Shown: positions 17,208-22,751 of the stretch, in pieces
Position numbering within the stretch: position 1 is the stretch's first letter
Layout: the number at the start of each line of letters is the position of its first letter
DNA from: Gammaproteobacteria bacterium
GTDB taxonomy: Bacteria; Pseudomonadota; Gammaproteobacteria; Arenicellales; JAJDZL01
Assembly (NCBI GenBank): GCA_022823625.1
Contig: JAJEHQ010000015.1
Coordinates: forward strand, 1-64,000
Length of the DNA stretch: 64,000 nucleotides
Reading direction: 5' to 3'
Translations under genes and position numbers: made by a program
Notes under the pieces: generated by a model
Database searches by the model: none
Told to the model about the DNA's origin: nothing
Seen by the model: only the letters and a program-made list of their open reading frames with translations

Positions 17208-19658
17208 CTAGATATCGATATTTTTTGCCGAGAGGGCCCTGGTTTCAATAAACTCACGCCGAGGCGGCACTTTGTCACCCATTAAAATTTCAAAAGTCTT
17301 ATCGGTGCCATCTATGTCTTCGATTTTGACCTTTCGCAGCAAGCGCTCACTCATGTCCATGGTGGTATCGCGCAGCTGATCTGCGTTCATTTCACCAAGG
17401 CCCTTATAGCGCTGAATGGTCATTCCCTTACGGGCGTCCTGCATCAGCCAATCGACTGCCTCGGTCAGATCAACATGTTTAGCGGATTTTGTACCGCGCT
17501 GAGCAATAACTGCCGACACATCGTGTTTGTGCATTTCATTAGCTAGGGCAGTCATTAACTTATAGCTCGATGAGTTCACAATCAGCCTGTCTATTAATGA
17601 CTCTTTACTGCTTCCCATGTGTTCTCTAACAAACTTGATGTGGTAGCCAGCTTCAGACCCTTCTCCTTCTGCAGGAATGACCTCGACAGAATAATCACCG
17701 ATTTCGTCTTCCAATGCTTCTGAGATCTTTTCCGCGAATGATTCAAGATAAGCCAGATCACCGAATTTTTCCGGGTCAAGTGGCTGTAGCTTGCTCAGGA
17801 CAGAAAGCACCCGGGGGTCAATGTTGCGATTTGATAGTTTTTCGGTTGCCAACCGAGCATCAATTCGAGTCTGACAAAGTTTTTCAAGCGCCTCTTTCTC
17901 AAGCACGATCGCAGCACTGTCTGAACCATTCATCAGTTCGACTCTTGCATCCAATAGTGCATTCTCCAAAACATATTCATCCAGTTCACCATCATCGCTC
18001 AGGTACTTTTCCGATTTTTTGTACTTCGCTTTGTATAGTGGCGGCTGCGCAATATACAGGTGCCCGTCTTCAATCAGGCGACGCATTTTGTTGAAGAAAA
18101 AAGTCAACAGCAAGGTGCGAATATGAGAGCCGTCGATATCCGCATCAGTCATGATGATGATGCGGTGATAGCGCAGATTTTCGATCTCAAATTCATTGTC
18201 AACACCGGTTCCCAGTGCAGCAATCAGTGTTTGAATCTCTTCAGACGCCACAATCTTGTCAATCGAAGCTTTCTGCACATTAAGAATTTTGCCTTTAAGG
18301 GGCAGAATCGCTTGATATTTTCGATCTCGAGCCTGCTTGGCCGAACCACCAGCGGATTCGCCCTCAACCAGGAATAGTTCACTGAGTGCCGGATCCTGCT
18401 CCTGACAATCTGCCAGTTTGCCAGGTAGGGTGGTTGACTCAAAGCCATTTTTTCGTGCGGCCTTTCGCGCCTGTTGGGCGCGCTCGCGAACTGCGGCTGC
18501 GTGAACGACTTTGTCACAAATCATGCGAGCAATTCTGGGGTTTTCTACCAGAAATTCAGTCAGCCCTTGGGAAACCACTTGCCGCACTGCGCCTTCGACA
18601 GATGAAGATACCAGTTTGTCCTTTGTTTGAGAGGAGAATTTGGGTTCGTTCACCCTAACCGATAGAATCGAAGTCAAACCCTCGCGAATATCGTCTCCAT
18701 TCACAGAAATTTTCTTGCCGATACCCAAGTCGTCCATATACGCGGTGATTGTTGTGGTTAAACCCTTGCGAAAACCTGTCGTATGGGTGCCACCATCGCG
18801 TTGATAGATGTTATTCGTATAGCTTCGGGAGTTATCCTGGTAATAGTTATTGCACCACTGCAGAGCTGCGTTAACAACCACACCGTCACGTTCACCAGAC
18901 AGCGAAATCACGTCCTGGTTGATCGGGTCGCGCGAGTGATTCAGGTCGGCTACATACTGTACGATGCCACCATCGTTCTTCATCACCTCTCGACGCCCGT
19001 CACGCTCATCGTAGAGTTCAATATGAATGCCAGAATTCAGATAGGCCAACTCCCGCAACCGCTGATGAATGATTTCAAAATGAAATTCAGTGTCACTGAA
19101 ATACTCATCTGACGGTTTGAATAGGATCGTGGTTCCAGTCTTGTCTGATTGACCCGTTACCTGAATTGGTTCGACGGGTTCACCATCGGCGAACTCCTGA
19201 TAGTGAACTTTGCCTTCCCGGTGGATCGTCATGTGCAGCTTTTCCGAAAGTGCATTCACCACAGAAACGCCAACACCATGCAGGCCTCCTGCAGCACTGT
19301 ACGACTCGTCGTCAAATTTTCCACCGGCATGCAGAACCGTCATCACAACGGTCGCACCGGGCATATCTTCGCCATTTGGCCCACCTTCTTTGACGATATC
19401 TGTCGGAATGCCTCGACCGTTATCTTCAACGGAAACCGCCCCGTCAGCATGAATAATGACAATAATCCGATCGCAAAATCTCTGCAGAACCTCATCAATC
19501 GAGTTGTCAACGACTTCGGTCACCATATGATGCAAACCGGTTCCATCATCGGTGTCACCAATGTACATACCAGGACGTTTACGGACTGGGTCCAGGCCGC
19601 GTAAAACCTTTATGTTTTCGGCTCCGTAAGAACTTCCGTTGGTCTTGTTTTCTGTCAT
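17208..19658 (-). CDS. gyrB: DNA gyrase subunit B
   Basis: ATPase subunit of the type II topoisomerase that introduces negative supercoils. 816 residues from the ATG at 19658; the track's TTG at 19667 adds three residues and has no better ribosome site. Order seen: GHKL ATPase (VVDNSIDE; VEDNGRGIPTDI; GLHGVGVSVVNALS), TOPRIM domain (ELFLVEGESAGGSAKQARDR; DADIDGSHIRTLLLTFF), and the C-terminal QRYKGLGEMNADQL block. dnaN follows upstream with only about 95 bases between and no recF. Confidence 0.97.
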   Translation of the reverse strand: MTENKTNGSSYGAENIKVLRGLDPVRKRPGMYIGDTDDGTGLHHMVTEVVDNSIDEVLQRFCDRIIVIIHADGAVSVEDNGRGIPTDIVKEGGPNGEDMPGATVVMTVLHAGGKFDDESYSAAGGLHGVGVSVVNALSEKLHMTIHREGKVHYQEFADGEPVEPIQVTGQSDKTGTTILFKPSDEYFSDTEFHFEIIHQRLRELAYLNSGIHIELYDERDGRREVMKNDGGIVQYVADLNHSRDPINQDVISLSGERDGVVVNAALQWCNNYYQDNSRSYTNNIYQRDGGTHTTGFRKGLTTTITAYMDDLGIGKKISVNGDDIREGLTSILSVRVNEPKFSSQTKDKLVSSSVEGAVRQVVSQGLTEFLVENPRIARMICDKVVHAAAVRERAQQARKAARKNGFESTTLPGKLADCQEQDPALSELFLVEGESAGGSAKQARDRKYQAILPLKGKILNVQKASIDKIVASEEIQTLIAALGTGVDNEFEIENLRYHRIIIMTDADIDGSHIRTLLLTFFFNKMRRLIEDGHLYIAQPPLYKAKYKKSEKYLSDDGELDEYVLENALLDARVELMNGSDSAAIVLEKEALEKLCQTRIDARLATEKLSNRNIDPRVLSVLSKLQPLDPEKFGDLAYLESFAEKISEALEDEIGDYSVEVIPAEGEGSEAGYHIKFVREHMGSSKESLIDRLIVNSSSYKLMTALANEMHKHDVSAVIAQRGTKSAKHVDLTEAVDWLMQDARKGMTIQRYKGLGEMNADQLRDTTMDMSERLLRKVKIEDIDGTDKTFEILMGDKVPPRREFIETRALSAKNIDI

Positions 19659-19756
19659 CTTATCCAATGAATGCTATGTTGGGTGCGTTGGATTGACTGG
19701 CGAACGCATCTAGTGCGAACGAAAGTTGCTGGATTATTTTGTTGCTGTTGCGAGCA

Positions 19757-20953
19757 CTAACTGTCTTTCAGCAGCATAACCAGAAAACTGGTTGATTCAT
19801 CTTCAGGAAATTTGACATGGCAAGCGGACTGAGTATCCCGCAAATACACATCGACGTTCTCGCAATCGGGCATTGCGTCGAGCGCATCTAACAGGTATCG
19901 GTAGTTGATCTGGAACACGTGTTTTTCCACGTTCTCTTCAACACTCATTGTGTGTTCAACTTTCTTCTGAACAATGTCGGCTCGAATATCCAGTCGACCG
20001 CTGCTCACATCTACTTTAGCCGCAATTCGCCCTTTACTTGGATCCCGTTGCGACATGCCGAGAATACCGACCGTCCTCAAGCCATTGGCAAGTTCTTCAC
20101 GGTTTGCACGAAATGCCAGTTCCAGATCTCCCGGTACCGCCGCACGCCAATCCGGAAATGCGCCTTCCAGCAGCTTTGAAGTAAACGAGTAGTAAGGTGT
20201 TGATACCTGAATGTGAGTGTTCTTGATTTTTACCGTGACTCTTGAAGTCAAGGTTCCAAGAACTTTACTGAGTTCAAGCGCAGTTTTCCGCGGTAGCACA
20301 GCACGATGTCGAAAAAAGGCATCACCAATTTCTTTATCCAGGTTCGTTTCGCTGATTGCCAGGCGATGACTGTCAGTTGTGACCGCACGTACTGAAGTAT
20401 TCGAAACCTCCAACAAGGTGGAATTCAAATACATACGTGGTTCATTGAGACCCATTGCATGCTCCGTCCGCTTGAGAATGCTGCGCAACGCAAACCGATC
20501 TATATCAAACTGCAGTGCCCACTCATCTTCACCAACACTGAGGTATGGAAAATCGTCCGGATCCAGTAATGTTTCGGTAAATGCATTCTTAAAATCCTCT
20601 GATGCATCCCCATTAGCTTCGGACGGAGTACCCGCTACAGACGTATCAATATTCTCGACCACTAAATCCCTGTTGCTTCGAAAAAAGCTCAGTCGACTGC
20701 CATTTCGCTGACGTCGACAATACTCCAGCAACAACTGCGCAGAGCAGACAAACTTGCCTTCCGCAGCAACATCGACATCGACAATTCTCTCGCTGGCTTC
20801 CATATCAATGTTGGAACCCCACAGGCGAATACCCTCACTATTTGATTCAATCAAAACCTGCGACAGGATCGGAATTGTTGGACCGGAATCTATGACCGAT
20901 GAAACTCGGGTCAAAGGATCAATAATCGCATTTTTTTCAATCAGGAATTGCAT
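19757..20953 (-). CDS. dnaN: DNA polymerase III beta sliding clamp
   Basis: Clamp that holds polymerase III on DNA. The frame opens at TTG 20962, but the ATG at 20953 gives MQFLIEKNAIIDPL, the normal N-terminus, and 398 aa. Typical clamps are about 366 aa. The excess lies mainly around residues 105-130, where an acidic stretch (SEANGDASEDFKNAF) precedes the conserved DFPYLSV block. The C-terminus ends ESTSFLVMLLKDS, a variant of the family's ..Y.VMPMRL, so the usual terminal motif is altered. Lies between dnaA and gyrB on the same strand. Confidence 0.95.
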   Translation of the reverse strand: MQFLIEKNAIIDPLTRVSSVIDSGPTIPILSQVLIESNSEGIRLWGSNIDMEASERIVDVDVAAEGKFVCSAQLLLEYCRRQRNGSRLSFFRSNRDLVVENIDTSVAGTPSEANGDASEDFKNAFTETLLDPDDFPYLSVGEDEWALQFDIDRFALRSILKRTEHAMGLNEPRMYLNSTLLEVSNTSVRAVTTDSHRLAISETNLDKEIGDAFFRHRAVLPRKTALELSKVLGTLTSRVTVKIKNTHIQVSTPYYSFTSKLLEGAFPDWRAAVPGDLELAFRANREELANGLRTVGILGMSQRDPSKGRIAAKVDVSSGRLDIRADIVQKKVEHTMSVEENVEKHVFQINYRYLLDALDAMPDCENVDVYLRDTQSACHVKFPEDESTSFLVMLLKDS

Positions 20954-21368
20954 GGTAACCAATAAATTTGTTTATAAAAATTTTCTTTTTTTGTTAGGCT
21001 TGCAAATTGTGTCAAAAACCTCAATACTCAACTGTTATCAATGAGATAGAGAGCAGAAATCTGTGAAGAAAATGGTGAAGAAACTGTGGAAGAATGTGGA
21101 TGGATTTCAACTCGAACAAAATCCGCATCTAGTTATTCACATTAGTTAGCAAATTATACACTTATTCCTTGTCAATTGATAAATTTCCGTTGCATTTCAA
21201 GTACAAAAAAGGATGAAAGATCTTCGGAACGGATGCTTGGCCATTCCATTGAAACAGTGAGTCAGGAAAGCCACTACGGGCTCATGCGAAACTAACGCAA
21301 GCGAGATTGTTGGCAGACGTCAAGATATTTTGACAGGAAGTTCGTTCTGGAATGGTAGGACTGATCGA
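20954..21368. other. Candidate chromosomal origin (dnaN-dnaA intergenic) with DnaA-box cluster
   Basis: A 415-bp non-coding gap. It holds one exact TTWTNCACA box (TTATTCACA, 21133-21141, plus strand) and a one-mismatch box (TTATACACT, 21154-21162). Four degenerate minus-strand boxes start at 21062, 21074, 21085 and 21095 (TGTGAAGAA, GGTGAAGAA, TGTGGAAGA, TGTGGATGG), 10-12 bp apart. An AT-rich tract at 20957-21000 could be the unwinding element. The dnaA-rpmH gap is the alternative origin but has fewer boxes. Confidence 0.5.
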
Positions 21369-22751
21369 TTACCGTCTGAATTGGTCCTGCAGGTTTTCGT
21401 ATTCCTCTCTGAATCGCCTGTCCTCTTTCATTCGCGCTTCGACTCTCTTTTGTGCATGAATAATCGTTCCATGATGCCTGCCCCCGAATGCTTTGCCGAT
21501 CTCAGGCAGGCTGTTACTGGTGAACTCCCGCGCCAGGCTCATAGCAACGTGGCGCACTGAAACCAGATCGCCTCGTCTATTGCTGGAGAGCATGTCCGAA
21601 TGCCTGATGCCATAAAAGTGAGACACAGTCTGTTGTATGAACTCTACAGTGATCGGTCGCGCATCATATTCCAGAAAATCCGCCAGCTGTTCCCTGACAA
21701 ATCCAACCGTAATATCTTTTCCTGTGAGTCGGTGAGTGGCTGCCAGCTTATTGAGAGCGCCTTCAAGTTCCCTGACACTGGCTGTGATGTTGTCGGCTAA
21801 ATATCTTAATACCTCAGGTGCCAGCGTAATCGAGCGCAATCTAGCCTTGGTTTCCAAAATCGCAATCCGGGTTTCCAATTCTGGCTGCCTGATTCGTACG
21901 GTCAAACCCTGGCTCAGTCTTGAAGTAATGCGTTCTTCAACATGGACTAGCTCCCTTGCAAACTTATCGCTGGTTAAAATCACCTGTTTTCCACCCTCGA
22001 GCAGCAAATTGAATGTTTGCAGAAATTCGCTCTGGGAAGATTCACCGCCGGAAAACAGATGTATGTCATCAATTAGCAACGCATCCAGTTCCCGGTAGGC
22101 TGCCTTCATTCGTTCAGCAGCGTTATTGTTGCGTTGCATGATGGCCTGAATGGTGTGCTGCACGAAATTTTGGGCGTTAACGTAGCCAACTTTCGCATTC
22201 GGAAAATTCGACGCTAGTGCGTGCCCTGCCGCCTGCATCAAATGCGTCTTGCCAATTCCAACGGTACCGTAAATGAACAACGGGTTGTATTCCCTTTGAC
22301 CAGGGTCTCTGCTCGCCGCCTCTGCAGCAGATCTTGCGAGCTGGTTTGATTCGCCAACAATATGTTGTTCAAAAGTGAAGTCGGGGTTTAACTGGCTGAA
22401 TCCGTAAGGCAGTTTTTTCGGGCCTTTCGATTTGCTGGTGGCATTACTTGGTCTGGACCGTTTACGATGCGAGGAATCGTTTCCCGATTCCAATTCGATC
22501 TTCACTGCAACACGGTCGCCCTGGTAAGCACAGGCTAATTCAGTAATTCTGTTCAGCCACTTGGATTCAACGCCAGATTTGACATAAGCATTTGGCGCTC
22601 TAAGCACCAGTACACCATTTTCTGAATCGGCGCTCAATGTGCGCAGCCAAGCGTGGCGATCTTTTTCACTAACCTCCTGCTCCAGCTGTTCTAAGATGCT
22701 CTCCCAAAGATTCAAGGGTACCATCGGAATGTGGCTCAAATGCTCCTTCAA
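21369..22751 (-). CDS. dnaA: Chromosomal replication initiator DnaA
   Basis: Initiator ATPase that opens the origin. 460 residues with domain I at the N-terminus, a basic linker (about 92-113), and an AAA+ domain with Walker A GTVGIGKT (162-169), Walker B LLIDDIHLF and the arginine-finger region ITSRLSQGLTV. Domain IV has the helix-turn-helix RHVAMSLAREFT..SLPEIG. The DNA-recognition signature is unusual: GRHHGTIIHA (about 424-433) replaces the near-universal GRDHTTVLHA, changing two residues that contact bases in E. coli (D433, T435). The frame is intact and long, so it is probably functional. Confidence 0.95.
   Translation of the reverse strand: MKEHLSHIPMVPLNLWESILEQLEQEVSEKDRHAWLRTLSADSENGVLVLRAPNAYVKSGVESKWLNRITELACAYQGDRVAVKIELESGNDSSHRKRSRPSNATSKSKGPKKLPYGFSQLNPDFTFEQHIVGESNQLARSAAEAASRDPGQREYNPLFIYGTVGIGKTHLMQAAGHALASNFPNAKVGYVNAQNFVQHTIQAIMQRNNNAAERMKAAYRELDALLIDDIHLFSGGESSQSEFLQTFNLLLEGGKQVILTSDKFARELVHVEERITSRLSQGLTVRIRQPELETRIAILETKARLRSITLAPEVLRYLADNITASVRELEGALNKLAATHRLTGKDITVGFVREQLADFLEYDARPITVEFIQQTVSHFYGIRHSDMLSSNRRGDLVSVRHVAMSLAREFTSNSLPEIGKAFGGRHHGTIIHAQKRVEARMKEDRRFREEYENLQDQFRR

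Follow-up and report, generated by a model that had tools for sequence, protein, structure and literature searches.

The DnaA initiator encoded in the draft genome analysed here, from an uncultured gammaproteobacterial lineage (the source genome; 3.18 Mb, 44 contigs, 97.45% complete) carries His and Gly where E. coli DnaA has Asp433 and Thr435, and is probably the ordinary and sole DnaA of a fast-evolving lineage, in which two base contacts have been lost, yet a standard origin and the core DnaA box TTATNCACA are retained. This natural variation in a universal protein is real and maintained, while for the most part the sequences do not bear out a rewritten DnaA box. Asp433 and Thr435 are regarded as reading the box almost universally, an assumption that underlies box searches across bacteria. 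The loss of both contacts with the box kept suggests that these contacts are either less essential than their conservation implies or replaceable, and the six genomes sampled in the genus form a natural mutational series at positions 433/435 (N/T, R/T, N/A and H/G) on a near-constant target.

The dnaA gene is located in the window, that is, the whole 64-kb stretch of DNA analysed (Table 1), and its frame, judged by comparison with E. coli DnaA, probably starts at the ATG at 22722-22724 rather than at the TTG at 22751. The DnaA_N, Bac_DnaA and Bac_DnaA_C domains occur in this order in the encoded protein, all above the Pfam cut-off, and DnaA matches were retrieved from the PDB with this protein. 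Walker A lysine 178, arginine finger 285 and sensor II arginine 334 are present in the alignment to E. coli MG1655 DnaA (NC_000913.3), which also provides the residue numbering. The AlphaFold2 model of the whole protein is weak (pTM 0.38) and usable for domain IV only, where pLDDT values are mostly 80-90 and the helix-turn-helix is intact; DnaA structures rank first in a Foldseek search with this model.

Table 1. Features of the dnaA region of the source genome, with positions numbered along the 64-kb window
Feature	Position	Strand	Basis
gyrB	17208..19667	minus	Pfam
dnaN, beta clamp	19757..20962	minus	Pfam
dnaA-dnaN intergenic region, predicted origin	20963..21368	.	GC-skew minimum; DnaA-box cluster conserved in genus
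Putative unwinding-like element	20975..21016	minus	inferred by comparison with the BUS layout of PMC8287927
Weaker box TTCTTCACA	21062-21070	minus	
Weaker box TTCTTCACC	21074-21082	minus	
Weaker box TCTTCCACA	21085-21093	minus	
Weaker box CCATCCACA	21095-21103	minus	
Exact DnaA box TTATTCACA	21133..21141	+	conserved in G005 and G002
Near-exact box TTATACACT	21154..21162	+	overlaps TATAAT-like sequence on opposite strand
dnaA	21369..22751	minus	Pfam, PDB DnaA matches, single Bac_DnaA_C match, alignment to E. coli
Recognition helix, N-terminal part (R-H-H-G-T-I, positions 432-437)	21462..21479	minus	translation and alignment
Codon 427, Lys in source genome	21492..21494	minus	alignment; coordinates counted from codon 433
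Codon for Arg399, minor-groove reader, retained	21576..21578	minus	alignment; coordinates counted from codon 433

The minus-strand frame translates as GGRHHGTIIHA, the encoded motif being FGGRHHGTIIHA within the recognition-helix region FGGRHHGTIIHAQKR. Codons 433 (CAT, 21474-21476), 434 (CAT, 21471-21473), 435 (GGA, 21468-21470), 436 (ACG, 21465-21467) and 437 (ATT, 21462-21464) bear out the HHGTI residues and codons of a preliminary description of this DNA, although the last codon lies just beyond the range 21465-21479 to which the motif had been assigned. In E. coli DnaA, residues 434-451 form the helix that recognises TNCACA from the major groove, and TTA is read by Arg399 from the minor groove; the T435M and R399A mutants are defective in box binding (PMC5742627). 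Base-specific roles are listed for R399, P423, D433, H434, T435 and H439 (PMC7561715), and box position 7 is assigned to D433 and L438 (PMC8235120); these residue-base contacts are cited second-hand rather than from the crystal-structure paper. The earlier claim that base-contacting positions are changed is upheld. The Asp433 and Thr435 of canonical box reading are replaced by His and Gly, while Arg399, Pro423, His434, Thr436 and His439 are kept. A loss of affinity would be expected from Gly435, because in E. coli specific binding is abolished by T435M. Compared with E. coli DnaA and its R-type TTATNCACA boxes, the domain order, the helix-turn-helix, R399, P423, H434, H439 and the core box are thus shared, whereas D433H, T435G, D427K and a largely replaced basic loop at R399 distinguish the protein, and the location of the boxes in the dnaA-dnaN gap and the lack of C at position 5 of the exact boxes distinguish the target.

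Alignment of relatives, the check proposed initially, shows the change to be clade-wide. Asp433 is absent from all six species sampled in the genus (the source genome and G001-G005), the sole genus representing its family. Position 433 is occupied by H, H, N, N, N and R, in the 433/435 pairs H/G (source genome and G005), N/A (G002), N/T (G001 and G004) and R/T (G003, with a one-residue deletion ahead of the pair). The loss of Thr435 is confined to the sub-lineage comprising the source genome, G005 and G002, and Gly435 was seen only in the first two among the DnaAs read. Asp433 is found in 41/41 DnaA sequences read from 40 genomes belonging to the order's other families, in which residue 435 is Thr or Ser, and is combined with Ser435 in all 21 Bacteroidota loci from the collection scan. 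Among 28 of the lowest-scoring genomes in a class sample of 370 gammaproteobacterial genomes, position 433 was readable in 21 DnaAs, 18 of which have Asp, the exceptions being Glu (G157), Asn (G148) and His (G359); for the high-scoring genomes of the class, the rarity of residues other than Asp is deduced from the score. The loss of Asp433 is characteristic of the genus and sporadic elsewhere. The canonical motif had been termed almost universal, which is fair for Asp433 among the DnaAs read and less so for Thr435, where Ser is common.

That the variant stems from an error in sequencing or assembly, or that this dnaA is a decayed copy and a functional one lies elsewhere, is extremely improbable, even with the draft status, 44 contigs and 97.45% completeness of the genome in its favour. 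The separately assembled relative G005, with a DnaA 96% identical to that of the source genome, has the same five motif codons, amid synonymous changes directly beside the motif (GGC/GGT and CAT/CAC) and 87 synonymous and 17 non-synonymous codon differences across the gene (dN 0.017, dS 0.365, dN/dS about 0.05, similar to dnaN and gyrB). The dnaA gene is under purifying selection, and the identity of these residues amid synonymous divergence indicates that the variant is maintained. The frame is furthermore open over its full length, only one Bac_DnaA_C match was found in a profile search of the 97.45% complete genome, so that the second, canonical dnaA raised as an objection was not found there, and every other genus member likewise has a residue other than Asp at 433, two of these being single-contig assemblies. 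The relatives rule this explanation out.

Further features set the DnaA proteins of the genus apart. R399 and H434 are kept in all six members and P423 and H439 in five each, while the basic loop around Arg399 (KRRSR in E. coli, SNRRG in the source genome) is thinned in all six relative to E. coli and three other controls. Position 427 is basic (Lys or Arg) in 6/6 members and acidic (Asp or Glu) in E. coli and these controls. The six proteins also share a three-residue insertion in the AAA+ domain (QRN after IQAIM), Gln at the box VII tryptophan position (SRLSQGL) and DDIH in place of DDIQ after Walker B, and the filler residues of the P-loop are altered (GTVGIGKT, GDVGNGKT and GRVGNGKT). Hda is encoded in all six genomes, with matches at about the cut-off or above. 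Judged by distances from E. coli, the DnaA, DnaN and GyrB proteins of the genus are all fast and on long branches; a DnaA-specific acceleration was ruled out as DnaN and GyrB are equally fast, indicating that the lineage is fast overall, with no special pressure on DnaA.

These long branches are consistent with relaxed constraint only, whereby Asp433 and Thr435 drifted uncompensated and specificity stayed as it was, the remaining contacts sufficing. The free variation among H, N and R at 433 within the genus and the sporadic Glu, Asn and His in other Gammaproteobacteria point the same way. Drift of this kind is nevertheless improbable, given that 6/6 members have a basic residue in place of Asp427, that Asp433 never returns in the genus and that the source genome and G005 have kept the same residues at dS 0.37, which argues against free drift at short range. 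Under the preferred reading of an ordinary DnaA with two contacts lost and its target kept, specificity would depend on the remaining contacts R399 (TTA in the minor groove), P423, H434 and H439, P423 and H439 not being kept in every genus member, and Asn, His or Arg at 433 may still be able to face A7. The acid-to-base change at codon 427 is a candidate compensating change: basic residues at 427 and 433 would supply backbone affinity, making up for the reduced charge of the basic loop, and the same gains could also offset the contact lost at 435. As the pattern at 427 is drawn from one clade only, it may be a coincidence of shared ancestry.

The target DNA is largely conventional. The cumulative GC skew of the window has its minimum in the 22-24 kb bin and rises thereafter, which places the origin at dnaA, beside dnaN, and the gap between the two genes is AT-rich. 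Weak boxes do exist here, as the preliminary description held in noting degenerate boxes nearby, but so does an exact TTATTCACA, the sole exact TTATNCACA in the window. About 2.1 exact matches are expected there by chance, so it is its place and conservation that matter, not its presence. This box lies within an unbroken conserved block in the source genome, G005 and G002, the last with a DnaA only about 70% identical. At least one exact TTATNCACA occurs in each of the six dnaA-dnaN gaps of the genus, giving eight against 0.15 expected from dinucleotide shuffles (about 50x). No box substitutions at position 7 or 8 were found in the six gaps, and position 7 is A in all eight exact boxes, so that the base attributed to Asp433 is unchanged. 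Counts in the six gaps also covered every single substitution of TTATNCACA and every double substitution involving positions 4 and 6-9. The single-substitution boxes that stand out are mainly TTATNCACT (four sites) and TTCTNCACA (two, in the source genome and G005), both with the core intact, and no double substitution is present twice; on these counts a new box motif was rejected. Box conservation can have other causes, for instance a dnaN promoter at the same place, and this weighs against the preferred reading. On the opposite strand, the near-exact box TTATACACT is overlapped by a conserved GTGTATAAT, likely a -10 element and possibly part of a dnaN promoter, and by this overlap DnaA may repress dnaN from within the origin.

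Position 5 of the box departs from the norm of the order, which likewise counts against the preferred reading. The eight exact boxes of the genus have T (4), A (2) or G (2) at this position, so that C occurs in 0/8, against 74/91 boxes in the order controls (Fisher p 6e-6), although by shared ancestry the eight represent only about five independent sites. The main box of the source genome has T5. The altered box recognition proposed at the outset therefore finds its contact positions changed clade-wide and a limited fit in the missing C5 and in an inexact box beside the unwinding-like element described below (source genome, G005, G002 and G004), while altered boxes are mostly not seen and an exact TTATNCACA is present in 6/6 gaps. 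In its mild form, a co-evolution of DnaA and box in which the changed helix 5 shifts the preferred box, chiefly by exchanging C5 for T, A or G, this explanation is possible but rather unlikely. A precedent is found in the Epsilonproteobacteria, where a fixed T5 accompanies changed helix-5 residues (PMC5043019). However, the weaker boxes of the source genome carry C5, mixed bases at position 5 also occur in L039, whose DnaA retains Asp433 and is the closest one in the tree, and position 5 is reported to be unimportant for the DnaA of both E. coli and Mycobacterium tuberculosis (PMC5043019). A genome-wide effect was dropped as uninformative, as TTATCCACA is not depleted in the source genome (23 sites against 15 for its reversed control; TTATTCACA, 25 against 16). 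The unrelated G157, G148 and G359, which also lack Asp433, have too few boxes to link position 5 with residue 433. The deviation is a weak sign of altered preference, a lead rather than a result, and neither it nor the inexact box beside the unwinding-like element is tied specifically to Asp433 or Thr435. Any change in specificity would be subtle and confined at most to position 5.

A broader, tentative reading, about which similar doubt is warranted, combines the loss of 433 (in one sub-lineage also of 435), the basic 427 and the thinned loop into a rewired interface, with a preference away from C5 and the CACA core kept, which would constitute a natural specificity variant distinct from the epsilonproteobacterial one. 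Epsilonproteobacterial DnaA, with the core TTCAC (PMC5043019), shares helix-5 variation at 435 and, with the main box of the source genome, T5. In contrast, Asp433 is kept there, Ser/Lys are common at 438/439 against Ile/His here, and the other genus members have A or G at position 5, so that T5 is not common to all boxes of the genus.

A box-spacer-trio element adjoins dnaN in the source genome (20970-21020) and in the same place in G001 and G003. It comprises in the source genome a weak box TTTGACACA (21008-21016), the spacer ATTTGCAAGCC and then TAACAAAAAAAGAAAATTTTTA, and is clearest in G003 (TTATGCACA-AGCC-TAATAATAGTAGTAC; in full TTATGCACAAGCCTAATAATAGTAGTAC). The box, the short spacer, the trio-like TAA/TAG repeats and the AT-rich DNA adjoining dnaN resemble the basal unwinding system, BUS (PMC8287927, PMC10721633), which suggests a BUS-type unwinding element. 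Agreement with the BUS layout (a box, a spacer of <=16 bp and at least three trios) is good in G003 and weak in the source genome; the boxes of the element are weak in the latter and in G005.

The usual gene order in this region is dnaA-dnaN-recF-gyrB. Frames resembling rpmH, rnpA and yidC, named by eye, lie on the other side of dnaA, and recF is missing between gyrB and dnaN (19668-19756). Neither the six genus members nor 11 other genomes of the order gave a RecF match above the cut-off, and recF may be absent order-wide. The DnaN proteins of the genus have an insertion of about 30-35 residues, their aligned part spanning 395-406 aa against 365-370 aa in E. coli and the order controls, and are very divergent, with that of the source genome sharing 37-40% identity with those of three genus members.
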